Of a DNA stretch of 64,000 nt, positions 1,593 to 16,518 are shown piece after piece. Every line of letters begins with the position of its first letter. Within the stretch, counting starts at the first letter, position 1. Position numbers and translations under genes: made by a program. The stretch is from Bosea sp. ANAM02 (GTDB lineage Bacteria > Pseudomonadota > Alphaproteobacteria > Rhizobiales > Beijerinckiaceae), in the NCBI RefSeq assembly GCF_011764485.1, contig NZ_AP022848.1, positions 1,206,001 to 1,270,000 of the forward strand. Direction: 5' to 3'. The notes under the pieces were generated by a model. The model searched no databases and was not told the DNA's origin. It worked only from the letters and a program-made list of their open reading frames with translations.

Positions 1593-1596
<4 letters not shown>
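1..1596 (-). CDS. Peptide-type ABC transporter substrate-binding protein (C-terminus beyond window)
   Basis: This is a periplasmic solute-binding protein of the peptide/oligopeptide family (SBP_bac_5 type), which delivers peptides or similar solutes to an inner-membrane ABC importer. The reading frame is open from the ATG at 1596 to base 1, giving 532 residues without a stop. The N-terminus has a twin-arginine-like export signal (Arg10-Arg11, then a hydrophobic stretch, and an AQA cleavage motif near residue 32). Typical family segments are visible, such as [18 protein letters not shown] and [20 protein letters not shown]. The start overlaps the stop of the ATPase gene in an ATGA arrangement, so the two are probably translationally coupled. 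It resembles the YejA/DppA/OppA group, but the substrate cannot be read from sequence. The gene is incomplete only because the window ends. Confidence 0.88.
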
Positions 1597-3470
<1,874 letters not shown>

Positions 3471-3497: not shown

Positions 3498-4550
3498 CTA
3501 CTGTTCCTCAGCTTTCCTCACGTCACTAGACGTCGAAAGCACGGGCTTGCCAATCGCTTTCGACGCTCGCGCCGGTTCCGGCGGGCATTGCCCGATGCGG
3601 ATGACATCACTGCAACGGGGCCCGCGCCGGAAATCGTCGTAGCTGATGCTCCAGGGCAGGGGCGCCGGGGCGCGGTAGGGGCCCATCTTGAAATACTGGT
3701 TGTTGTCGAGGCCGGGGCCGCCATGGCCGATATGGCCGGTGACGGTCACGATATGGACGCCATCGGCGAGGATTTCGATATGGCCGTCGCCGTCGGGGCC
3801 GGGCTCGGAGCGCACGACGAAGTCGATCCAGCCCTGCTGCGCCGAGGGCAGGTCGGCATGGTGCGTGACCCGGATGCCCGGCGCGCAGGAATCGAAATAG
3901 CTCGGATAGTTTTCCGGAGTGGTGCCGCTTTCCATGGCGACGAGCGCGCGCGTCTGGTGCGCGTCGGGGCGGCTGAGCACGCGTCCTTCGCCTGGGAGGC
4001 AACCTGCGGGACGTTCGCTGCCGCCGATCGGGTAGGAGGGAATCAGATCGGTCTCGACGGTGATGCCGAGCCGGCCGCGATAGAGGCGCAAGGCGAGGAA
4101 GGGCGAATAGTCGCCGACGGCTTCGGGCAGGATCTCGCGCTTCCATTGCGCGATCACATATCGGCGATCGTCCTGGGCGAGCGGATCGTTGAGGCGCAGC
4201 GCAAAGCCGTACCAGACCGGATGACGGAAGGGCACCAGCACGTCCGGGCGCTCCCAGACCTCGGCCCTTTCGCTGCAGCCCGCCGCATGCGGGAGGCAGG
4301 ATGGCGTCGCGGTCAGGGTCAGGGCGCCGACGCCGCTATAGGGCGCGGCCCGATCGAACGTCACGCGCCCCGATCGTTGCTCGGGATTGTCCTTGTAGAA
4401 GAGCCCGCCTTCGGGCGCGAAGCCGTTCTGCTCGAAGCCGTCGCGCAGGATGATCTGCGCGGGATCGGCGCGCGCCGGGGCCGGAAGCGGTCCGGCAAGG
4501 CCGATCATGACCGCGCAGCCCAGCATTCCCGATGCGACGCCTCTGTTCAC
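3498..4550 (-). CDS. Secreted polysaccharide lyase-like protein (heparin lyase I superfamily)
   Basis: The 350-residue product has an N-terminal signal peptide (about residues 1-28, ending ARA). The mature part resembles the polysaccharide lyase/heparin-lyase-I-like jelly-roll family, with segments such as RAEVWERPD, YVIAQWKRE and NNQYFKMGPYR that fit its beta-sandwich. It would act in the periplasm or outside the cell on an acidic polysaccharide; the substrate is not known. I chose the GTG at 4550 because GGGGGAAG precedes it closely and the signal peptide starts there. The long open frame further upstream on this strand is only the shadow of the gene on the other strand. It lies 27 nt upstream of the ABC ATPase in the same direction, so it may share its transcript. 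Confidence 0.72.
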   Translation of the reverse strand: MNRGVASGMLGCAVMIGLAGPLPAPARADPAQIILRDGFEQNGFAPEGGLFYKDNPEQRSGRVTFDRAAPYSGVGALTLTATPSCLPHAAGCSERAEVWERPDVLVPFRHPVWYGFALRLNDPLAQDDRRYVIAQWKREILPEAVGDYSPFLALRLYRGRLGITVETDLIPSYPIGGSERPAGCLPGEGRVLSRPDAHQTRALVAMESGTTPENYPSYFDSCAPGIRVTHHADLPSAQQGWIDFVVRSEPGPDGDGHIEILADGVHIVTVTGHIGHGGPGLDNNQYFKMGPYRAPAPLPWSISYDDFRRGPRCSDVIRIGQCPPEPARASKAIGKPVLSTSSDVRKAEEQ

Positions 4551-4709: not shown

Positions 4710-7451
4710 TTGGAGTCCAATCTCTTCCGTTACATCTGGCAGAAGAGCCGGGCCGAGCAGGTCGTCGTCCTGCTGATCATCCTTGTCTCGATCCCGTTCA
4801 ACTGGGCCTCGTTCGACGTGCCCAAGCGCATCGTCAACGACGCGATCCAGGGCGGAGCCTTCAAGGACGGCAAGACCACCGCGACCCTGATGGACTTCAC
4901 CCTGCACCTGCCGTCCTGGCTGGGCGGGGCCAGCTACACGATCTCGGAGGGCATCCAGGTCGGCCAGTACGGCCTGCTGATCGGCCTGAGCGGCTATTTC
5001 CTGCTGCTGGTCCTGATCAATGGCGGGTTCAAATACCTCATCAACGTGCGCAAGGGCATCCTGGGCGAGCGGATGCTGAGGCGCATGCGCTACGACCTGT
5101 TCAGCCAGCTCATGCGCTTCCGGCCGGAGGATATCCGCTCGGTCAAGCCGGCAGAGGTCGCCAGCATGATCAAGGACGAGGTCGAGCCGATCGGCGGCTT
5201 CGTCGGCGATGCCTTCATCCAGCCGGTCTTCCTGCTCAGCCAGGCGCTCACCGCGCTCGTCTTCATCATGGCGCAGAGCGTCTGGCTGGGGTCGATCGCG
5301 CTGCTGATCGTGCTGGCGCAGGCGATCATCATCCCGATTCTCAGGCGCGAGCAGCTCAGGCTGGGCCGCGAGCGGCAGATCGCCTCGCGCCAGCTCGCGG
5401 GCCGGATCGGCGAGATCGTCGATGCCGGGCCGATGATTCAGGGCCATGGCGCGACGGCCTATGTCCAGTCCGACATCGCCGGGCGGCTCGGCCGGCTGTT
5501 CGACATCCGCTACGCGCTCTACAAGCGGAAATTCGCGGTCAAGTTCCTGAACAACCTGCTCGCCCAGATCACGCCGTTCTTCTTCTACGCCATCGGCGGC
5601 TTCTTCGCCTTGCAGGGGCGGCTCGACATCGGCCAGCTCGTCGCGGTGATCGCCGCTTATCGCGACCTGCCGCCGCCGATCAAGGAGCTGATCGACTGGG
5701 ATCAGCAGCGCAACGACGTGACGATCAAGTACGATCAGGTCATCTCCCAGTTCAACAACGACGAGACGCTGGTCCTCGACGAGGAGAACGGCGTCCCGGC
5801 CCTGTCGGAGAAGGGCGAGGTGCGGCTCGAATCCGTGCAGATGCTGGACAACCGCGGCCAGCCGCTGCTGACGCCGCTCTCGTTCAGCCTGAAGCGACCG
5901 GGCATCGTCGCGGTGATCGGTCCACAGGGTGGCGGCAAGGATGTGCTCGGCCGAATTCTCGGCCGGCAGGCGACGAGCTATACCGGCCGCGTGCTGATCG
6001 ACGGCGAGCCGCTGGCAGGCATGTCGGTCGAGCGGGCGAGCCATCTCATCGGCTATTCCGGAGACGAACCGGAGATCATCGCCGGCTCGATGCGCGACAA
6101 CATCCTGTTGCCGCTCAGGCGCCGTCGCCCCGATCTGAAGGATACCGGGGCGATTTCCGCGCCGGAGCATCGCCGCTTCGTCGAAGCGCTCCGCTCCGGC
6201 AACTCGCCCTTTCCGTTCGAGGCGGACTGGACCGATTACGAGGGGGTCGGCGTGGCCGACGCGGCCGAGCTCGCGGCGCGGATCCACGAATTGCTCGACG
6301 TCTTCGGCTGCACGCAGGATGTCTACGAGCTCGGCATGGGCGGCAAGGTGATGCGGCCCGTCAGCGAGCAGGCGATCGAGCGCATCATCACCGCGCGCCG
6401 CGTCGTCGCGGCCGAACTCGCGCGGATCAAGCAGGGCGACCTGATCGAGCCGTTCGTTCTCGACCGCTACAACCGCAACGCGTCGATCGTGGAGAACCTG
6501 ATCTTCGGCACGCGCACCACGACGCGCTTCGACAGCGCGACCCTGCTGTTCGAGCCGTATGCCCAGTCGATCCTGAAAGCGGAGGCGCTGGTCGAGCCCC
6601 TGGCCGAGATGGGCGCGCGCATCGTCGCGACCGTCGTCGAAATCTTCGCCGGTCTGCCGCAGGGCCACGCGCTGTTCGAGCGCTATTCCTTCGGCGCCCA
6701 TTTCGAGTTCGAGCGTCTGAACGAGCTGGCGGACGTGCTGGCCAAGCATGACATGCGCAATCCGCTCGACCAGGAGACCGAGCGCGATCTCGTGGCGCTG
6801 GCGCTGGGCTATATCGAGCCCAAGCACAGGCTCAATCTGATCGATGTCCGCCTGGAGCGGCGCATCCTCCGGGCGCGAGGGAGCTTCCGCAGGCACCTGC
6901 CGGCCGATGCGGTCGACGATGTCGATTTCTACGATCCCGACAAGGTGATGGTCGGCGCCAGCGTGCGCGACAACCTGATGTTCGGGCGCATCGGCTACGG
7001 CCTGCCCGATGCCGCGCGCAAGGTCGACGAGATCGTGCTGCAAGCGCTCTCCCGCTCGGGACTGGGCGAGGCGCTGTATCGGTTGGGCCTCGATACCGAG
7101 AGCGGCATCCGCGGCCGCTATCTGCCGGCGCGGCTGCGCCAGGCCGTGCCGCTGGTGCAGGCGCTGGTCAAGGCGCCGCAGATCGCGGTGCTCGACATTT
7201 CGGCCCTGCTCGCGATTTCTGACGAACCCGCGGAGATCGTCGCAAGGCTGCACGGCTACTGCGCGGGCATGACGCTGTTTCTTCTGGTCGGAGATGCTAA
7301 TCTTGCGGGCGAGGTGCCGCTGCGGGTGATGTTCCACGGAGCGACAGGGACGGTCGAGGCGCAGGGTACGCCCGATGCGGCCAATGATCGGGCGTCGCGC
7401 TTCGACGACGCCGGGCGCGAGAATACCGGGCGAATGGAGGCACGGTCATGA
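4710..7451 (+). CDS. ABC-exporter-like membrane protein with a degenerate, enlarged nucleotide-binding domain
   Basis: This 913-residue protein begins with an exporter-type transmembrane domain (about residues 15-330, hydrophobic segments around 18-36, 88-105 and 170-215). An ABC-like domain follows in which the conserved motifs are changed. The Walker A equivalent at 404-411 reads GPQGGGKD, with Asp where Ser/Thr binds magnesium. The signature region near 805 reads LPARLRQ instead of LSGGQ. The Walker B equivalent is IAVLDIS, without the Asp-Glu pair. Walker A and signature are about 400 residues apart instead of roughly 100-130. Three segments resembling the Q-loop-following helix (SMRDNILLPL, SIVENLIFG, SVRDNLMFG) occur at about 454, 590 and 748. 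I chose the TTG at 4710 because AGGG lies 7 nt upstream; an earlier ATG near 4570 is possible. Its stop overlaps the next gene by 4 nt. ATP hydrolysis seems unlikely; a scaffold or sensor role is inferred. Confidence 0.82.
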   Translation: MESNLFRYIWQKSRAEQVVVLLIILVSIPFNWASFDVPKRIVNDAIQGGAFKDGKTTATLMDFTLHLPSWLGGASYTISEGIQVGQYGLLIGLSGYFLLLVLINGGFKYLINVRKGILGERMLRRMRYDLFSQLMRFRPEDIRSVKPAEVASMIKDEVEPIGGFVGDAFIQPVFLLSQALTALVFIMAQSVWLGSIALLIVLAQAIIIPILRREQLRLGRERQIASRQLAGRIGEIVDAGPMIQGHGATAYVQSDIAGRLGRLFDIRYALYKRKFAVKFLNNLLAQITPFFFYAIGGFFALQGRLDIGQLVAVIAAYRDLPPPIKELIDWDQQRNDVTIKYDQVISQFNNDETLVLDEENGVPALSEKGEVRLESVQMLDNRGQPLLTPLSFSLKRPGIVAVIGPQGGGKDVLGRILGRQATSYTGRVLIDGEPLAGMSVERASHLIGYSGDEPEIIAGSMRDNILLPLRRRRPDLKDTGAISAPEHRRFVEALRSGNSPFPFEADWTDYEGVGVADAAELAARIHELLDVFGCTQDVYELGMGGKVMRPVSEQAIERIITARRVVAAELARIKQGDLIEPFVLDRYNRNASIVENLIFGTRTTTRFDSATLLFEPYAQSILKAEALVEPLAEMGARIVATVVEIFAGLPQGHALFERYSFGAHFEFERLNELADVLAKHDMRNPLDQETERDLVALALGYIEPKHRLNLIDVRLERRILRARGSFRRHLPADAVDDVDFYDPDKVMVGASVRDNLMFGRIGYGLPDAARKVDEIVLQALSRSGLGEALYRLGLDTESGIRGRYLPARLRQAVPLVQALVKAPQIAVLDISALLAISDEPAEIVARLHGYCAGMTLFLLVGDANLAGEVPLRVMFHGATGTVEAQGTPDAANDRASRFDDAGRENTGRMEARS

Positions 7452-7897
7452 GTCTGGACACCGATATCGGCTGCCTGCGTACGCTGCCGCTGTTTCAGGA
7501 CATGCCGGCATCACGGCTGAAGCTCGTCGCGCTGATGGGCGAGCGCTTGCAATTCGAGCCCGGCGACATCCTGATCAGTCCGCAGGAGAAGCTTGCGGGC
7601 GTGTATGTCATCCTGGAAGGCGAGGTCGAGATTTCGCAGCCGCGCGAAAACGGCGAGGAGCGACGCTTCGTCAAGGATACCGGCAGCATCACCGGCGACG
7701 TGGCCTTGCTCAGCGGCAAGCCCTTCATCACGACAATCAGCGCCAAGTCGCGGGTGCTGGCCCTGCGGATACCGAAGGACCTGTTCTTCGAACTGCTCCA
7801 GACCGTGCCGGAGTTCAGCCTCGCGGTCTGCCGGGATCTGGCCGACCGCGTCCACCGGCTCGCCTCCGTGCTGCTGCACGAGCACGAAACCGTTTGA
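7448..7897 (+). CDS. Stand-alone cyclic-nucleotide-binding-fold protein (atypical ligand pocket)
   Basis: This 149-residue cytoplasmic protein is a single cNMP-binding (CAP-type) beta-roll without a DNA-binding domain. It begins LRTLPLFQDMPASRLKLVAL, and the EPGDILI and YVILEGEVEI strands are typical of the fold. In the phosphate-binding cassette, near residues 80-95, the canonical Gly-Glu and Arg are missing: the sequence reads TGDVALLSGKPFITTI, with Asp for Glu and no Arg. Binding of cAMP in the usual way is therefore doubtful. The ATG overlaps the stop of the ABC-like gene (ATGA), and 16 nt separate it from the cyclase-domain gene. The three genes probably form one transcript and one complex. 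Confidence 0.85.
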   Translation: MSLDTDIGCLRTLPLFQDMPASRLKLVALMGERLQFEPGDILISPQEKLAGVYVILEGEVEISQPRENGEERRFVKDTGSITGDVALLSGKPFITTISAKSRVLALRIPKDLFFELLQTVPEFSLAVCRDLADRVHRLASVLLHEHETV

Positions 7898-7913
7898 CGA
7901 GGTCGATCAGCGC

Positions 7914-9725
7914 ATGAACCGGCCGCAAGCCGCAGGCAGCAACCGCACCGGAATGCCCCGCGGTGGCATGGGTGCCAGCATGGATCAGGTCTCCTCCTGG
8001 AGCCGGGATATCCGGCTGATCTCCGGACTGATCCTGCTCGTTTTCGCGACGACCCATTTCCTGAACCATGCGGTCGGTATCCTCGGCGTCGACGCGATGG
8101 AGAAGGTCCAGGACTGGCGCTATGGCTTCTGGCATTCCCGGGGCGGAACCATTGCGCTCTATGGAGCTCTGGTCGTCCACCCCGTTTTCGCGCTGCTGCG
8201 CGTGGTCCAGCGGCGCACCTTCAAGATGCCGCTGCGCGAGATGCTGCAGATCGCGCTCGGCCTCGCCATTCCGCTATTGCTGGTCGACCACATCATCAGC
8301 ACGCGGATCATGGGGATCTATTTCGGCGTCGACGAGAGCTACCGCTCCGTTCTGCGCCGGCTCTGGCCGGACCTGGCGCTGACGCAGTCGCTGCTGCTGC
8401 TGCTGGTCTGGACGCATGGCATCATCGGCATCCATTTCATGCTGCGCGCCCGCGACAGCTATCGTCACTGGCGCGACCCGTTCCTGCTGGCGGCGATCCT
8501 GATCCCGCTGCTGGCGTTGATCGGCTTCACCGTGGGGGCGCGCGAGGCCGAGCAGATGGCGATGCCGGCTGAGCTGGTCAGCGATGCGCAGGCGGCGATG
8601 TTCGCCCGCGACGTGATGTGGGGCAAAGGTGCCTTCTACGGCCTCGTCGCCTCCTTCCTGCTGTTCATCGGCATCCGCGAGATCAGGGTCCGGACAACGC
8701 GCCAGATCACGGTACGCTTCGTCGGTCACGGCACGCGACGCCTGGCGCCGGGGCCGACGGTGCTGGAGATGTTCCGACGCTTCGGCATCCCGCATGCCGC
8801 GCTCTGCGGCGGGCGGGCGCGCTGCGCCACCTGCCGCGTGCTGGTGATGGACGGCAACGACAAGCTGCCGAAGCCCGGCCCGAACGAGGCCAAGCTGCTG
8901 CGCCGAATCTCGGCGCCCGAAGGCGTCCGGCTCGCCTGCCAGATCCGGCCGCGCGAGGATCTGCAGGTCCAGATCCTGCTGGCCTCGCGGCTGAATGCCG
9001 GCGCGGGGCGCCCGCTCGATCTCGACGATGCCGCCGGCAAGCGCGGCCTGACCGTGGTGGTGGCCGATCTCAGGGCGTTCTCGGCCCTGTCGGAGCGGCA
9101 GTTGCCGCGCGAGCTCATCGGCCTGCTCAACCGCTTCTTCGACGAGATGAGTCAGGCGATCACCGCGCATGAAGGGCGGATCGACGCCTTCTATGGCGAC
9201 GGCTTCATGGCGGTGTTCGGGCTCGAGGGCCCGCCGTCGAAGGGCGCGCAGGCGGCGATCGCGGCCGCCGCCGATATCGTGCGGGCGGTCGATGCGCTCA
9301 ACCGCGAATATGGCGCGGCGCTGCCTTTGCCGCTCCGGATCGGCATCGGCATCCATACCGGCGACGCCATCACCGGCGCGGTCGAGAACGACAATCTCGG
9401 CCGCCGCGAGATCACGGTCGGCGAGACCGTGATGGTCGCGAGCCAGCTCGAATCGGCGACGCGGCGCGTGCTGGCCGATGTCGTCGTCTCCGAGGATACG
9501 ATCCGGGCGAGCGGGCGCAGCTATGCCGGCACGACCTCGCTCAAGATCGCGATCAAGGGGCGCGAAAAGCCGTTGACCGCCTACGGCTTCGCCAGCGCGC
9601 CGGAAATCGCCCGCCGCAAGCGCGAGGACGTGGCCGTGCCGGTGCCCGTGGTGGCAGGCGGCGAGACGACGACGCCGACGGAGGCGGTGCAGGAAGAGCA
9701 GGGCGAGGCAGGCGAAAAAGCCTGA
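7914..9725 (+). CDS. Membrane protein with SDHC-like anchor, [2Fe-2S] ferredoxin domain and class III cyclase domain
   Basis: The 603-residue protein has about six transmembrane helices (roughly residues 20-265) with several helix-located His residues (THFLNH, VHPVF, LLVDH, WTHGIIGIH). This resembles diheme cytochrome b/succinate dehydrogenase C anchors. A plant-type ferredoxin domain follows with CX5CX2C at 298, 304 and 307 and a fourth Cys at 342. The C-terminal part (about 375-575) is a class III nucleotide cyclase fold. The two metal Asp are present (VADLRAFS, FYGDGFMAVFG). The substrate-specifying Lys is Ala, and the transition-state Asn and Arg of the usual VNxAxR motif are Met and Gln (GETVMVASQLE). 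Known relatives, such as redox-responsive CyaC of Sinorhizobium meliloti, are active cyclases; activity here is uncertain. The start at 7914 follows GAGG 11 nt upstream. Confidence 0.85.
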   Translation: MNRPQAAGSNRTGMPRGGMGASMDQVSSWSRDIRLISGLILLVFATTHFLNHAVGILGVDAMEKVQDWRYGFWHSRGGTIALYGALVVHPVFALLRVVQRRTFKMPLREMLQIALGLAIPLLLVDHIISTRIMGIYFGVDESYRSVLRRLWPDLALTQSLLLLLVWTHGIIGIHFMLRARDSYRHWRDPFLLAAILIPLLALIGFTVGAREAEQMAMPAELVSDAQAAMFARDVMWGKGAFYGLVASFLLFIGIREIRVRTTRQITVRFVGHGTRRLAPGPTVLEMFRRFGIPHAALCGGRARCATCRVLVMDGNDKLPKPGPNEAKLLRRISAPEGVRLACQIRPREDLQVQILLASRLNAGAGRPLDLDDAAGKRGLTVVVADLRAFSALSERQLPRELIGLLNRFFDEMSQAITAHEGRIDAFYGDGFMAVFGLEGPPSKGAQAAIAAAADIVRAVDALNREYGAALPLPLRIGIGIHTGDAITGAVENDNLGRREITVGETVMVASQLESATRRVLADVVVSEDTIRASGRSYAGTTSLKIAIKGREKPLTAYGFASAPEIARRKREDVAVPVPVVAGGETTTPTEAVQEEQGEAGEKA

Positions 9726-9904: not shown

Positions 9905-10567
9905 ATGACGCCCGAACCGCCCCAAGAGGCCTTCCACGACCTGCTGCGCGGCATGGCGGCGCTCTCGGGCAACCACATCGTCGCCGATATCGCGCGGCTC
10001 TACGGCAAGGGCGCGCCGCCCGACCTCTCGATCGCCTGCAACCACAAGCAGATTGCTTCCAAGCAATGGCTGGTCGAGGCGCTGGCGCAGGCCTGCCCGA
10101 AGCCTGCGGGACCGGTCTGGGTGCTCGGCGCCTGGTACGGAGTGCTCGGTGCGCTGCTGCTCGACGATGACAGGCTCGCGATCCCCGAAATCGTCAGCCT
10201 CGATATCGACCCGACCTGCGCGCCGGTCGCGGAAATCCTGAACCACCGCCATGTCGCGGCGGGGCGCTTCCGGGCGATGACGGCAGATATGATGGCAATG
10301 GATTTCGCGACGCAGTCGCCGATGCCTGGCCTTGTCGTCAACACGAGCTGCGAACATCTCGATGATGTATCGGGCTGGATCGCGACCCTGCCGCGGGGCC
10401 TGCCGCTGGTGCTGCAATCCAACGACTATTTCCGGGAGCCGGATCACCGGAGCTGCGTGCCCTCGCTCGACGCCTTCCGCGAGCAGGCGGGGCTGTCGGA
10501 GGTCTGGTTCGCTGGCGCCCGGCCGACGAAGAACTATACGCGCTTCATGCTGATCGGGCGGCGATGA
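9905..10567 (+). CDS. Putative SAM-dependent methyltransferase-like protein
   Basis: The 220-residue protein has a Rossmann-like pattern: VWVLGAWYGVLGALLL fits the glycine-rich motif I, VSLDIDP fits the acidic end of strand 2, and PGLVVNTSCEHL fits strand 4. This suggests a class I SAM-binding fold, though motif I is not textbook (GAWYG instead of GxGxG). The substrate is unknown. The stop overlaps the ATG of the following glycosyltransferase by 4 nt, so it probably belongs to a small glycan-modification operon. It could instead be a catalytically inactive family member. Confidence 0.6.
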   Translation: MTPEPPQEAFHDLLRGMAALSGNHIVADIARLYGKGAPPDLSIACNHKQIASKQWLVEALAQACPKPAGPVWVLGAWYGVLGALLLDDDRLAIPEIVSLDIDPTCAPVAEILNHRHVAAGRFRAMTADMMAMDFATQSPMPGLVVNTSCEHLDDVSGWIATLPRGLPLVLQSNDYFREPDHRSCVPSLDAFREQAGLSEVWFAGARPTKNYTRFMLIGRR

Positions 10568-11814
10568 CGAAGCGCAAGGCGCCGCGCATCGCGGTGGCGA
10601 TGAAGGGCTATCCGCGCCTGTCGGAGACCTTCATCGCGCAGGAGTTACTGGGCTTGCAGCAGCGCGGCCTGTTCTTCGAGATCTGGTCGCTGCGCCATCC
10701 GACGGATGGGGCAAAGCATTTGATGCATCATCAGATAACGGCGCCGGCGCGCTATCTTCCGGAATATCTGCATGACGAGCCATTGCGCGTGATGCGGGGC
10801 CTGCTCGCCGCGCTGCTGCGGCCGGGTCTGCTGCGTCTGCTGCCTGTCTTCCTGCGCGATCTCGCCCGCGACCGGACACGCAACCGCTGGCGCCGCTTCG
10901 GGCAGGCCTGCGTGATGGCGCGCGAATTGCCCGGGGATATCCGCCACCTGCATGTGCATTACCTGCACACGCCGGCTTCCGTGATCCGCTATGCCGCCCT
11001 GCTCGGCGGGCTGACCTGGTCGTTCTCGGCCCATGCCAAGGACATCTGGACGACGCAGGACTGGGAGAAGCGCGAGAAGATCGCCTCCGCCGCTTGGGGC
11101 GTCACCTGCACACGCGACGGACATCGCGAGCTGGAGCGGTTGTCCGACCGGCCGGACAAGGTCGGGCTGCTCTATCACGGGCTCGATCTTGCGCGTTTTC
11201 CGGCGCCGGGGCTTCGATCGCTGCGGGACGGCACGGACCCGGCCGATCCCGTGCACTTCGTCACGATCGGGCGGGCGGTGGCGAAGAAGGGTTTCGACGA
11301 TCTGCTGGAGGCGTTGGGGAAGCTGCCCTGCACGCTGAATTGGCGCCTCACCCATATCGGCGGGGGTGAGAGGCTGAAGGCCCTCCAGGCGCAGGCGCAG
11401 GCGCTCGGGCTCGATGACCGGATCACCTGGGCCGGGCCAAAGGCGCAGGACGGGGTCATCGCCGCTTTGCGGGCCGCCGACCTCTTCGTGTTGCCCTCGA
11501 AGGAAGCCGGAGACGGCGACCGCGACGGCCTACCCAACGTGGTGATGGAGGCGGCAAGTCAGGGCCTGCCGATCGTCGCGACCGATTTCGCGGGGATACC
11601 GGAATTCGTGCGCGATGGTGTCGAGGGACTGCTGGTGCCGCCGGGCGACGTCGTGGCCCTGGCGGCCGCGCTCAACCAGCTTGCGATTGCACCGTCCCGG
11701 CGTGCCGTATTGGGCGAAGCCGCTTTCGCCCGCCTGACGGAAGCTTTCTCGGCCCAGGCCGGGCTCGACCGCGTCGCGGCCATGCTCCGCGGTTCGGCTG
11801 GCGAGGGTGCATGA
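10564..11814 (+). CDS. Glycosyltransferase family 4 (GT-B fold)
   Basis: This 416-residue cytoplasmic or membrane-associated enzyme transfers a sugar from a nucleotide-sugar donor to a growing glycan. The N-terminal domain carries the GYPRLSETFIAQEL acceptor-side motif common in exopolysaccharide/colanic-acid-type GT4 enzymes. The C-terminal domain (from about residue 225) has VTIGRAVAKKGFDDLLEA and the donor-binding EX7E-type region (EAGDGDRDGLPNVVMEA). Length and motifs are normal. It overlaps both neighbours by 4 nt (ATGA), so the three genes are one translationally coupled unit. The glycan is not identifiable. Confidence 0.88.
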   Translation: MTKRKAPRIAVAMKGYPRLSETFIAQELLGLQQRGLFFEIWSLRHPTDGAKHLMHHQITAPARYLPEYLHDEPLRVMRGLLAALLRPGLLRLLPVFLRDLARDRTRNRWRRFGQACVMARELPGDIRHLHVHYLHTPASVIRYAALLGGLTWSFSAHAKDIWTTQDWEKREKIASAAWGVTCTRDGHRELERLSDRPDKVGLLYHGLDLARFPAPGLRSLRDGTDPADPVHFVTIGRAVAKKGFDDLLEALGKLPCTLNWRLTHIGGGERLKALQAQAQALGLDDRITWAGPKAQDGVIAALRAADLFVLPSKEAGDGDRDGLPNVVMEAASQGLPIVATDFAGIPEFVRDGVEGLLVPPGDVVALAAALNQLAIAPSRRAVLGEAAFARLTEAFSAQAGLDRVAAMLRGSAGEGA

Positions 11815-13094
11815 GCGCTTCCGTCCTGATCGCAGTGACGCATCTGCTCGGCAGCGGCCATCTGGTCCGCGCGGCGAACCTGGCGCGGGCTTTGGCGCAA
11901 GGCGGCTTGTCGGTGACGCTGGCGAGTGGCGGCATGCCGTTGCGTGCGATGGAGAACGAGCCTTTCGCCTTCGTGCAGTTGCCTGCGATCAGGACCGAAG
12001 GCACCGATTTCCGCACGCTGCTCGACGAGGGCGGCGCGCCGATCGATCCGGAGCGTAAGGCCGCCCGGATCGCCTCACTGGAAGAGCTGGCGGCGCGGTT
12101 GCGGCCCGATGCCGTGATCGTCGAGCATTTTCCCTTCGGGCGACGGCAATTGGCCGCTGAGTTCCTCGCTCTGATCGCCGCGGTGAAGACGGTGCGGCCG
12201 GGGGCGCTTGTGCTCTCCTCGGTGCGGGACGTGCTGGTGACGCCGCGCGCCGACCGGATCGCCGAAGCCGAGGAGCGGGTTGCCGGGATGTTCGACGCGG
12301 TTTTGGTCCACGGCGATGCTCGTTTCCTGCCGCTTGAACGGTCATGGCCGGTGGGCGCGGGGCTGACGGGAAAGCTGCGCTATACCGGCTATCTGGATGC
12401 GGAGAGGGCTTCGCATCTCTCAAGCCCTCATCCTGAGGAGCCGCAAAGCGGCGTCTCGAAGGATGTTCCAGATGCCGCCGGAGCCTCCGGGAGCATCCTT
12501 CGAGACGCCATTTCTGCCGAAATGGCTCCTCAGGATGAGGGCTCGGACGGGATGGACGAAGTCATCGTCTCCGGCGGCGGTTCGGCCGCGGCCCTGCCGC
12601 TCTTCGCCTGCGCGGTCGCCGCCGCGCGGCTCGACCGCTCCGGGCGTCGCTGGCGGCTTCTCGCCGGTCGCGGCATGGCGGATCGCGATCTGGCGCTGCT
12701 GATGGCAGAAGCTCCCGGGAAGGTCGTGATCGAGCGGGCGCGGCCGGATTTTCCGACGCTGCTTGCCGGCTGCGCGGTCTCGATCAGCCAGGCCGGCTAC
12801 AACACCGTGCTCGATCTCGTCGCGGCCGGGCGGCCGGCGATCGTCGTGCCCTTCGATGCCGGCAATGAGACCGAGCAGACCGTTCGGGCCGAGGCGATGG
12901 AGCGGGCGGGGCTGGCGCGCTGCTTCCGGCTGTCGGGCGATTTCGTCGGGGATGCGGTGGCGCTGGCGGATGCCGTCGGCGAGGCCGTCGGCTCCCGGCC
13001 GGCCGCTCTGCTGATCGACCGCGACGGCGCCACCCGCTCGGCCGCGATCGTGAGAGAGCTTCTCACAGACGCTGCCGGCCGCTCTCGACACTGA
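11811..13094 (+). CDS. MurG-like glycosyltransferase carrying an in-frame palindromic insertion
   Basis: The 427-residue protein is a GT-B-fold glycosyltransferase of the MurG/family 28 type. The N-terminal domain includes VTHLLGSGHLVRAANLARAL; the C-terminal domain includes ISQAGYNTVLDLVAAGRPAIV, the family's Gly-rich donor-binding region. Residues 205-245 (SSPHPEEPQSG and following) are encoded by a 121-bp palindromic element and have no counterpart in the fold; they fall in the linker between the two domains. The frame stays open through the insertion, so the gene may still work. It is the last gene of the methyltransferase/GT4 operon (4-nt overlap upstream). Confidence 0.83.
   Translation: MSASVLIAVTHLLGSGHLVRAANLARALAQGGLSVTLASGGMPLRAMENEPFAFVQLPAIRTEGTDFRTLLDEGGAPIDPERKAARIASLEELAARLRPDAVIVEHFPFGRRQLAAEFLALIAAVKTVRPGALVLSSVRDVLVTPRADRIAEAEERVAGMFDAVLVHGDARFLPLERSWPVGAGLTGKLRYTGYLDAERASHLSSPHPEEPQSGVSKDVPDAAGASGSILRDAISAEMAPQDEGSDGMDEVIVSGGGSAAALPLFACAVAAARLDRSGRRWRLLAGRGMADRDLALLMAEAPGKVVIERARPDFPTLLAGCAVSISQAGYNTVLDLVAAGRPAIVVPFDAGNETEQTVRAEAMERAGLARCFRLSGDFVGDAVALADAVGEAVGSRPAALLIDRDGATRSAAIVRELLTDAAGRSRH
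12423..12543. repeat. Palindromic element inserted within the glycosyltransferase gene
   Basis: The 20-nt arms at 12423-12442 and 12524-12543 are perfect reverse complements (AGCCCTCATCCTGAGGAGCC on the left). A second pair of 15-nt arms (GCGTCTCGAAGGATG and its complement) lies inside. The core CTCATCCTGAGGAGC...CTCGAAGGATG is a familiar dispersed intergenic element of Hyphomicrobiales, here translated in frame. Confidence 0.95.
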
Positions 13095-13246
13095 GCCGGC
13101 ATGCCCTTTGCGAGGGCCCGGGTGCAGCTTTGCGAATTGCCGCTTCCGGTCTTTCGCTCTAATGAGGGACGATCCGCCTCCCTCCTCGGTCGGCTCTGGG
13201 TTGCCCGGCGAATTCCGGTCATGGCCCTTTGCCTGGAGACAAGATG

Positions 13247-14230
13247 ATGACGACGACGACTGCGCCCGGCCTGCCCGACATGAAGCTGTCGGTGCGCCAG
13301 ACTTTCGGGATCGATTCGGATCTCGAGGTGCCGGCCTATTCCGCAGCCGATCCGCATGTGCCGGACCTCGACCCGGATTACCGCTTCGACCGCGACACCA
13401 CGATCGCGATCCTCGCCGGCTTCGCGCATAACCGCCGCGTCATGATCTCGGGCTATCACGGCACCGGCAAGTCGACCCATATCGAGCAGGTCGCCGCCCG
13501 CCTCAACTGGCCCTGCGTCCGCGTCAACCTCGACAGCCATGTCTCGCGCCTCGACCTCGTCGGCAAGGACGCGATCGTGCTGAAGGAAGGCAAGCAGATC
13601 ACCGAGTTCCAGGACGGCATCCTGCCCTGGGCGCTGCAGAACAACATCGCGCTCGTCTTCGATGAATACGATGCCGGCCGCCCGGACGTGATGTTCGTGA
13701 TCCAGCGCGTTCTGGAGCAGTCCGGCAAGCTGACGCTGCTCGACCAGAAGCGCGTCATCCGCCCGCATGCGGCCTTCCGCCTGTTCGCCACGGCCAACAC
13801 CGTCGGTCTCGGCGACACCTCAGGCCTCTATCACGGAACCCAGCAGATCAACCAGGGCCAGATGGACCGCTGGTCGATCGTCACCACGCTGAACTACCTG
13901 CCGCATGACAACGAGGTCGCGATCGTCCTCGCGAAGTCGAAGCATTTCCAGAGCACGCCGGAAGGCAAGGACGTCATCAACAAGATGGTCCGCGTCGCCG
14001 ATCTCACCCGCAACGCCTTCATGAACGGCGATCTCTCGACCGTGATGAGCCCGCGTACGGTCATCACTTGGGCCGAGAACGCGGCGATCTTCGGTGATAT
14101 CGGCTTCGCCTTCCGCGTTACCTTCCTGAACAAGTGCGACGAGATGGAGCGCACGCTGGTGGCCGAGTTCTTCCAGCGCTCCTTCGGCAAGGAACTGCCG
14201 GAAAGCGCCGCGAACGTGGTGCTCAGCTAA
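13247..14230 (+). CDS. cobS: Cobaltochelatase subunit CobS (AAA+ ATPase)
   Basis: CobS is the AAA+ subunit of the aerobic cobaltochelatase. With CobT and CobN it inserts Co2+ into hydrogenobyrinic acid a,c-diamide in vitamin B12 synthesis. The 327-residue protein shows Walker [10 protein letters not shown], Walker [12 protein letters not shown] and sensor region [12 protein letters not shown], matching CobS along its whole length. Two ATGs are adjacent (13244, 13247); GGAG at 13235-13238 favours the second. A GFA-family gene separates it from cobT. cobN is not in the window. Confidence 0.96.
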
Positions 14231-14246
14231 CGGGAGGACACGAGCC

Positions 14247-14597
14247 ATGGCGCAGTATCAGGGAAGCTGCCACTGCGGGCGGGTCGCCTACGAGGTCGAA
14301 GCCGATCTCGGGCAGACGATCACCTGCAACTGCTCCTACTGCCAGCGCCGCGGCTCGATCCTCGCGTTCTCGCCCGCCAGCGCCTTCACCCTGACCAAGG
14401 GCGAGGACGCGCTGACCGAGTACCGCTTCCACACGCAGAAGATCCAGCATCTGTTCTGCGAGACCTGCGGCGTCGAGTCCTTCGCGAAGGCGAACGGCCC
14501 CGATGGCACGCCGATGGTCGCGGTCAATGTGCGCTGCCTTGCCGGCGTCGAGCCGACCGAATTGTCGCCGACGCAGTACGACGGGCGGTCGCGCTAA
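14247..14597 (+). CDS. GFA family zinc-binding protein (formaldehyde-activating-enzyme-like)
   Basis: The 116-residue protein has the zinc-ligand pattern of the GFA/CENP-V fold: CHCG near the N-terminus, CNCSYC in the middle and CETCGV further on. Family members are annotated as glutathione-dependent formaldehyde-activating enzymes, but most have unknown substrates. It lies 16 nt after cobS and 28 nt before cobT, in the same direction, and is probably cotranscribed with them. A link to cobalamin synthesis is only positional. Confidence 0.85.
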
Positions 14598-14625
14598 TCC
14601 TTCGAAGCCAGAGGACGGCCCAGTC

Positions 14626-16518
14626 TTGTCCATCTCGAACCGCAAGCCAGGAACGCCGAAGGAGGCTCCGGCCGAGCCGCTGAAGCGGGCGATCTCGGGC
14701 GCCATGAAGGCGATCGCCCGCAAACCGGAGATGGAAATCGTCTTCGCGGCCGACAAGCCGTCGCTGGTCGGCGAGCGGGCGCGCCTGCCCGAGCCGCCGC
14801 GCAAGCTCAGCCCCGGCGACGTGGCGATCCTGCGCGGCCATGCCGATTCGATGGCGCTCAGGCTCGCCTGCCATGACGCCGCGATCCACCGCCGCGCCGC
14901 ACCCGAGGGCGATGCTGCCCGCGCCGTGTTCGACGCCGTCGAGCAGGCGCGCGTCGAATCGATTGGCGCACGGCGGATGTCCGGCATGGCCGGCAACATC
15001 ACCGCGATGCTGGAGGACCGCTATCATCGCGGTGGGCGCTACGAGGAGGTCACGGACCGGGCCGATGCCCCGCTGGAGGATGCGCTCGCCCTGATGGTGC
15101 GCGAGCGCCTGACGGGTTTGAAGCCGCCGAAAGCGGCCGAGAAGGTCGTCGAGCTCTGGCGCGAGCAGATCGAGGCCAAGGCCGGCTCGGAGCTCGACCG
15201 ACTCACCAAGGCGATCGAGGACCAGCGCGGCTTTGCCCGCACGGTGCGCGACATGCTGGCCGCGCTCGACATGGCCGAGCAGACGGCGCAGGGCGACGAA
15301 TCCGACGAGGACGAGGACAACCAGGACCAGTCCTCCGAGGACCAGCAGCAGCAGGACGGCGAATCCGAGCAGGAGAGCGGCGCCGACCGCTCCGAGGTCG
15401 AGGTTAGCGAGGACGCGACCGAGGAACTGCAGGAGGGCGCCTCCGAGGCGACCGACGCGCCGGCCGGCGACTGGGAGGAGGAGGACGAGAACTCCGAATC
15501 CGAGGAGGCCGGCGAGGCGCCGCGTCCGCGCGAGAGCCGCGGCAACGAACGGCCGCAGACCGACTACAAGGCCTATACCCAGAAGTTCGACGAGGTCGTC
15601 ACCGCCGAGGAGCTCTGCGACGCAGAGGAGCTGACGCGCCTGCGGGCCTATCTCGACAAGCAGCTCGCCCATCTCCAGGGCGTGGTCGCGCGCCTCGCCA
15701 ACCGCCTGCAGCGACGCCTGATGGCGCAGCAGAATCGCACCTGGGAATTCGACCTGGAGGAGGGCGCGCTCGATCCGGCCCGTCTGCCGCGCATCATCCT
15801 CGACCCGTTCCAGCCGCTCTCGTTCCGGCAGGAATCGGACACGAATTTCCGCGACACGGTGGTCACGCTGCTGATCGACAATTCAGGCTCGATGCGTGGC
15901 CGGCCGATCACGGTCGCGGCGACCTGCGCCGACATCCTGGCCCGGACGCTGGAGCGCTGCGGCGTCAAGGTCGAATTGCTCGGCTTCACGACCCGCGCCT
16001 GGAAGGGCGGTCTGTCGCGCGAAGCCTGGCTGCAATCGGGCAAGCCGGCCAATCCCGGCCGCCTCAACGATCTGCGCCATATCATCTACAAGGCGGCGGA
16101 CGCGCCCTGGCGGCGGGCCCGCAAGAATCTCGGCCTGATGATGCGCGAGGGGCTGCTCAAGGAGAATATCGACGGCGAGGCGCTTGATTGGGCGCATAAG
16201 CGCATTCTTGGCCGGGCCGAGCAGCGCAAGATCCTGATGGTGATCTCGGACGGCGCGCCGGTCGACGATTCCACCCTCTCGGTCAATGCCGGCAACTATC
16301 TCGAGCGGCATCTGCGCCATGTCATCGCCGAGATCGAAACGCGCTCGCCGGTCGAGCTGATCGCCATCGGCATCGGCCACGACGTGACGCGCTATTATCG
16401 CCGCGCCGTGACCATCGTCGATGCGGAGGAACTGGGCGGCGTGATGACCGAGAAGCTCGCCGAATTGTTCGAAGAGGATGGGCCGGGCGGTTCGGGCTCC
16501 AAGCGCCGCGGGCATTGA
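14626..16518 (+). CDS. cobT: Cobaltochelatase subunit CobT
   Basis: CobT is the von Willebrand A-type partner of CobS in aerobic cobaltochelatase. The 630-residue protein has an N-terminal helical region, a very acidic middle (about residues 220-310, rich in Asp, Glu and Gln) and a C-terminal VWA domain with the MIDAS motif [11 protein letters not shown]. The start is taken as the TTG at 14626, with GAGG 11 nt upstream and the N-terminus MSISNRKPG. The acidic linker is normal for the family. Confidence 0.95.

Follow-up and report, generated by a model that had tools for sequence, protein, structure and literature searches.

A widespread alphaproteobacterial module built on an ABC-exporter-like protein, and its putatively non-catalytic version in Bosea

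PMC10463352 describes S. meliloti CyaC as a redox-sensitive diheme class III adenylate cyclase in complex with other proteins, whose contact with CycR needs no nucleotide, whereas its contact with Clr needs ATP. Here we describe a three-gene operon of the soil bacterium Bosea sp. ANAM02 that ends in a CyaC-like gene. The window, that is, the whole stretch of DNA analysed, comprises 64,000 nucleotides (contig NZ_AP022848.1, positions 1,206,001 to 1,270,000) of a 5.65 Mb assembly in two contigs (GCF_011764485.1), and the closest named homologues are from Bosea. The operon encodes proteins with an ATP-binding cassette (ABC) exporter fold, a cyclic-nucleotide-binding (CNB, or cNMP-binding) fold and a cyclase domain:

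4710..7451, + strand: gene A, ABC-exporter-fold membrane protein, 913 amino acids (aa), TTG start; ABC_membrane and ABC_tran matches in Pfam
7448..7897, + strand: gene B, stand-alone cNMP-binding-fold protein, 149 aa; PF00027 at 56.1 bits (cutoff 27.5)
7914..9725, + strand: gene C, CyaC-like pseudo-cyclase, 603 aa; anchor of six transmembrane helices (6TM), PF00111 (Fer2) and PF00211 (Guanylate_cyc)

The three genes are co-directional (4710-9725); A and B overlap in ATGA and C starts 16 nt past B, so the closely spaced operon of a preliminary description stands. The TTG start of gene A at 4710 (stop at 7451) coincides with the same start residue in most of 18 aligned homologues.

Gene C resembles CyaC, as PMC10463352 presents it, in its domain architecture, which joins a 6TM heme-b anchor to a class III domain. 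According to the same text, CyaC has Lys410, Thr484, Asn491 and Arg495 and makes cAMP, whereas gene C replaces all four positions. The CyaC gene lies beside TetR (cycR) and LysR genes; gene C lies beside the ABC/cNMP pair. CyaC is also said, in work of Wissig et al. from 2019, to carry four signature histidines and a 2Fe-2S cluster. Gene A differs from the type IV (ABCB-type) exporters BmrA, TM287/288 and MsbA in lacking a canonical Walker A, signature and Walker B Glu, and in carrying an insert of ~255 aa with repeated Q-loop-like segments. The receptors SUR1/SUR2 (ABCC8/9), which bind and hydrolyse nucleotide and gate Kir6 channels, are non-transporting ABC-fold regulators, but gene A has no known channel partner. 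CNB-linked ABC exporters of the bacteriocin type (TIGR03896) likewise pair a cNMP fold with an ABC exporter; the match is weak (31.4 bits, cutoff 161.05), and these are, to our knowledge, working ATPases with no cyclase or redox anchor included. A search of open-licence PMC papers gave no published description of the gene A family.

We surveyed 160 loci with gene A relatives (161 rows in the gene A alignment) and searched a class-wide sample of 385 genomes for the ABC family of gene A, which was matched in 132, in a few only partially. Gene B starts no more than 300 bp from gene A in 154 of the 160 loci and is fused to its C-terminus in four (L078, L160, L165 and L166); the two exceptions to this linkage, seen in 158/160 loci as a gene B that follows or is fused to A, are L028 (gene A split, gap 1272) and L079 (no gene B). 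These and the following data are best explained if the Bosea operon is a non-catalytic form of a module widespread in the Alphaproteobacteria, whose cyclase and cNMP-binding protein act on a membrane protein resembling an ABC exporter.

Gene A is composed of a transmembrane domain (TMD, ~1-345) and a pseudo-nucleotide-binding domain (pseudo-NBD, ~363 to 893) interrupted by the insert (481-735), whose repeats gave HHalign probabilities of 97.6, 95.5 and 47.4 for the three relevant pairs of sub-alignments, without a shuffled control. The structure model retains the exporter TMD and the NBD fold, with TM287/288 and TmrAB among its fold matches. Walker A reads GPQGGGKD (K410, then D411) and the signature position LPARL, as expected from the earlier claims that Walker A ends in KD and that LSGGQ is missing. 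The claim that the Walker B Asp-Glu pair is gone was right for the Glu (I830) but not for the Asp, which is present as D829. Across the 161 rows, a canonical Walker A (G..G.GK[ST]) is found in none, a Lys at the Walker position in 12, an LSGGQ-like motif at the aligned site in two and the Walker B Asp-Glu in five. In this alignment, the motif defect is common to the whole family. The TMD is the best conserved part of the protein, with 72 of 345 columns at least 95% identical among 45 diverse rows, compared with 3 of 135 in the N-terminal half of the NBD. Judged from its sequence, gene A is probably an ABC-exporter-like protein without ATP hydrolysis. It might instead still be energised, as the degenerate half of a heterodimer whose canonical ABC partner is encoded elsewhere, with genes B and C as regulators. 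Exporters with one degenerate site do exist (TM287/288 and TmrAB), and the conserved TMD would agree with such a role. In heterodimeric exporters, however, the degenerate protomer as a rule retains a usable Walker A, whereas no gene A row has a canonical one. Moreover, a simple pattern finds canonical ABC frames in only 12/160 loci, so no regular ABC neighbour is seen, although no genome-wide partner search was made. We regard a heterodimer as unlikely.

Relatives of gene A also occur apart from the operon. The same genome encodes, outside the window (G000 C1:35194-36201; L220:4458-5771), a TMD-only relative of 437 aa that has no Pfam match and an E value of 2.9e-67 to the gene A (A3) profile. 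Other genomes have comparable TMD-only frames (L221, L223, L225 and, close to the end of a contig, L224), and by eye the neighbours of some resemble copper-oxidase or efflux genes. L222:2934-5525 is a paralogous pseudo-ABC protein of the bacterial family of gene A, with the same inserted degenerate NBD and a very different membrane domain. Partial matches to the C-terminus only were found in G174, G196, G272, G315, G342 and G389.

In gene B, D84 and F93 replace the phosphate-cassette Glu and Arg, the loss already pointed out in the preliminary description. Both residues are present in 129 of the 160 gene B rows (window copy included) and both are missing in all 19 Bosea rows, in which D84 is invariant and position 93 varies (F, Y, T or N). 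The 45 invariant positions of Bosea gene B fall mostly in residues 1-39 (18) and 106-143 (19), which we take to be mainly helices in the CNB fold, with six in the pocket (79-99). Among the aligned rows, the pocket defect is the narrowest of the three and marks Bosea and a few other lineages. The genome as a whole has 13 PF00027 matches, of which by eye only two (L192 and L196) keep Glu and Arg.

The Met and Gln that had been reported at the transition-state Asn and Arg positions of gene C are M507 and Q511. Beyond these, the substrate Lys is replaced by A425 and the Thr/Asp position is I500, while the metal-binding aspartates D385 and D429 are retained. Among close homologues (the best 120 of 1752, at least 72% identical and thus close kin only), Lys occurs in 0/120, Asn or Arg in 0/119 and both metal aspartates in 120/120. 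The replacements are largely kept (A in 118/120, I in 117/119, Q in 118/119), with position 507 divided between M (63) and A (56); elsewhere in the pseudo-cyclase group, residues at the catalytic positions vary widely. The anchor histidines H48, H89, H126 and H168, presumably heme ligands, and the Fer2 cysteines C298, C304, C307 and C342 are found in all 51 CyaC-like rows (50 loci and the window copy) and in all 120 of these homologues.

Of the 51 CyaC-like rows, 13 carry the strict catalytic set (Lys, Thr/Asp, Asn, Arg) and 38 are degenerate. One branch divides the two, with a Shimodaira-Hasegawa-like approximate likelihood-ratio support (SH-aLRT) of 98 on the whole protein, 77 on 6TM and Fer2 alone and 91 on the ABC-TMD tree. 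Because the rebuilds on 6TM plus Fer2 and on the ABC TMD give the same single change, we rejected the possibility that catalytic columns alone drive the split. A single loss of the catalytic residues is the simplest reading, since active class III enzymes carry them, and in these trees the cyclase defect defines one multi-genus group. The wider 'degenerate' label, mapped onto the TMD tree with all 79 rows, requires three changes.

Ratios of nonsynonymous to synonymous substitution rates (dN/dS) were calculated for the window operon against the near loci L002, L003 and L004 and against L012, L006 and L013. Every domain of genes A, B and C lies at 0.07-0.24 against L002-L004, with 0.07-0.09 for the cyclase domain, 0.07-0.09 for Fer2 and 0.15-0.20 for the NBD; the cyclase domain reaches 0.15 against L012, 0.21 against L006 and 0.40 against L013. 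By this measure, purifying selection acts on the dead cyclase domain within Bosea, and the invariant residues suggest the same across other genera. The invariant His and Cys together with the low cyclase dN/dS indicate that the sensor side is being maintained, as is the dead output domain.

These data bear on two further alternatives. The first is that the cyclase domain has changed its activity or ligand and binds or converts an unusual nucleotide, which the altered pocket of gene B (D84, often an aromatic residue at 93) recognises. The metal aspartates kept in all 120 close homologues, the largely conserved Ala, Ile, Met-or-Ala and Gln replacements in close kin, the invariant D84 of Bosea and a cyclase dN/dS among the lowest of the operon against near relatives would all be compatible with this. 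The M/A split at position 507, the widely varying replacements across the pseudo-cyclase group and the four different residues at position 93 suit lost rather than changed chemistry, and we judge changed chemistry improbable. The second is that the operon is decaying, its catalysis gone and its genes lingering with a residual scaffold role or none. The pseudo-NBD and the cNMP gene do diverge faster than the TMD, dN/dS is higher against L013, and in the metagenome-assembled genome (MAG) L028 an in-frame stop interrupts gene A. The low dN/dS of all domains against L002-L004, the open A and B frames in nearly all loci of many genera and the four His and four Cys invariant in 51/51 rows, however, leave decay a very small chance.

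For A and C, decay of a single copy by chance can be excluded, because canonical Walker A (0/161) is absent from all gene A rows, and Lys (0/120) and Asn or Arg (0/119) from the close homologues of gene C; an isolated degenerate copy was thus rejected. The preliminary description had suggested looking for the trio in other genomes and asking whether its substitutions are conserved, which in the Bosea-type proteins seen they are: the pocket pair is lost in 19/19 Bosea rows and the Lys is absent in 120/120 of the closest homologues. It had also held that intact orthologous operons, with this copy a lone decayed case, would speak against its proposal. Intact relatives do exist, as described below, but the copy in the window is not isolated.

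Within the same genome, the pseudo-cyclase is the sole PF00211 (class III) match; searches with PF01295 and PF01928 (classes I and IV, the latter at E 0.001) returned none, and classes II, V and VI were not searched. A second cyclase was thus rejected for classes III, I and IV. The pseudo-cyclase is likewise the only PF00211 match in G301, and in six other Bosea-type and three Ancylobacter draft genomes, of unstated completeness, the only match (E up to 10) lies within the trio locus. Other Bosea-type genomes (G400, G402-G405, G407 and G408) have 2-8 PF00211 matches. With those cyclases, and with Glu and Arg kept in 129/160 rows of the wider family, cAMP from elsewhere in the cell or from outside might still be the signal, the trio being an ordinary cAMP-responsive system with a poor pocket. 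Against this stand the genomes with the pseudo-cyclase only, including the present one, and the absence of both Glu and Arg from Bosea gene B. Our estimate for this alternative is low, slightly below that for changed chemistry.

The third gene varies more than the first two. Among the 160 loci, 50 have a CyaC-like gene, 29 another cyclase match (one of them, L019, a CyaC-like gene cut by a contig end) and 81 none in reach, in part where the contig or stretch ends. Of the 28 non-CyaC cyclases scored, 24 keep Lys, both Asp, Thr and Asn, all with Lys at the Arg position. With a label of 'intact' that allows this Lys, the 79 readable cyclase rows comprise 37 intact (24 through Lys-for-Arg and 13 CyaC-like strict) and 42 degenerate ones. 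Cyclase and pocket are both intact in related operons of Chelatococcus (L036 and L038), a Microvirga MAG (L033) and Plasticicumulans (L070), which makes it probable that the ancestral module worked with a cyclic nucleotide.

The pocket Glu and Arg are present in 36 of the 37 intact-cyclase loci, the exception being L144 (Asp and Arg). Among the 42 degenerate-cyclase rows, the pocket is kept in 18 and lost in 24, of which 19 are Bosea. Parsimony places cyclase loss before pocket loss in Bosea, in L026 and in L065/L074/L117, and the raw table of the two losses gives a Fisher p of 7.5e-8, uncorrected for kinship. In this sample, only the combination of three losses is special to Bosea and a few others.

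A four-gene version of the module was seen in L131, L142, L161, L162 and L169, comprising the ABC pseudo-ATPase, a cNMP protein with Glu and Arg, a metallo-beta-lactamase (MBL)-fold hydrolase and a soluble class III cyclase that has Lys in place of the Arg. The hydrolase is perhaps a phosphodiesterase. An MBL homologue lies near gene A in 49/160 loci.

The operon is flanked by the following genes:

3498..4526, - strand: polysaccharide-lyase gene, PF14099 at 79.2 bits; divergent, 183 bp from the operon
9905..10567, + strand: neighbour of 220 aa without a Pfam match; homologue in 28/160 loci
10564..11814, + strand: family 4-type glycosyltransferase (GT4), PF13692/PF00534; homologue near gene A in 114/160 loci
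11811..13094, + strand: GT28-type glycosyltransferase, PF04101; homologue near gene A in 81/160 loci

Homologues of flanking genes were called by blastp at E 1e-8 over flanks of unequal length, and low-identity matches may represent other glycosyltransferases. Lyase homologues occur in 21/160 loci. In 17 of these the gene is divergent and adjoins gene A; all 17, 7 of them among the 18 Bosea loci retrieved and 10 elsewhere, belong to the pseudo-cyclase group.

We give an even chance to the reading that the operon relays a redox signal without catalysis to a membrane protein of ABC fold, perhaps in the service of an envelope glycan. The data suggest that the redox signal is passed by protein contact alone. 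As in S. meliloti CyaC, the anchor of gene C would bind heme b and read the redox state of quinone or oxygen. Oxidation or reduction may then shift the packing of the dead cyclase dimer. The dimer would contact gene B at the conserved N- and C-terminal regions of the latter, and no nucleotide would have to diffuse between them. Gene B, which four loci encode as a fusion with gene A, would dock on the pseudo-NBD and there open, close or assemble the TMD of gene A. The likeliest client would be the assembly, export or remodelling of an envelope glycan that the nearby glycosyltransferases would make and the divergent lyase would trim. The fullest form of this reading, an all-pseudo chain of cyclase, cNMP protein and ABC protein that arose stepwise from a cyclic-nucleotide system and now passes redox state by contact to an ATP-independent channel or scaffold serving an envelope glycan, is more tentative, and we rate it as possible rather than probable. 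The preliminary proposal of a conserved non-catalytic or differently catalytic complex is upheld in part: a complex that is conserved, under selection and non-catalytic is the best-supported idea and accounts for the data better than decay does; the three defects, however, differ in age and scope.

Several observations weigh against the relay. The retained metal aspartates possibly leave some nucleotide binding or slow turnover. Foldseek whole-chain TM-scores for gene A are modest (0.25-0.40 by query length), and against the more distant L013 (dS 0.41-0.98) dN/dS rises to 0.40 for the cyclase, 0.56 for the C-terminal part of the pseudo-NBD and 0.71 for gene B. Few independent events (3-5 pairs, for which the sign test is not significant) underlie the association of cyclase loss with pocket loss, and we rejected it as proof. 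In six more rows the pocket pair is gone and no degenerate cyclase is seen, namely L019, with its cut cyclase, and L157, L158, L160, L165 and L166, with none in reach. In Ancylobacter (L021, L023 and L025), a degenerate cyclase stands beside an intact pocket Glu and Arg. As it is the sole PF00211 match of those three genomes, the pocket can persist without a cyclase. The order of losses is for these reasons, non-significant pairs and the intact Ancylobacter pocket, a pattern only. Finally, 15 of 19 non-Bosea pseudo-cyclase loci have no GT4 in their flanks, some of which are short; 10 of these 15 have the lyase and five neither. With these GT4 genes missing and some flanks short, the glycan link can only be called suggestive.

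The survey exposes an ABC-exporter-fold family without canonical ATPase motifs, tied to a cNMP-binding protein, in about one-third of the sampled genomes. With the pseudo-ABC protein constant, the loci grade naturally from an active cyclase and an intact pocket, through a dead cyclase beside an intact pocket, to a state in which both are dead, which allows testing whether second-messenger modules can turn into direct protein relays.

Two other features of the surroundings were recorded. A canonical two-domain ABC ATPase of the oligopeptide type lies close to the operon (window positions 1593-3470, - strand), and by eye similar ATPases lie near the distant copies L036, L044, L075 and L131. Past the glycosyltransferases, cobS- and cobT-like genes follow (13229-16518, + strand), with CobS in 17/160 and CobT in 14/160 loci, kept in Bosea.

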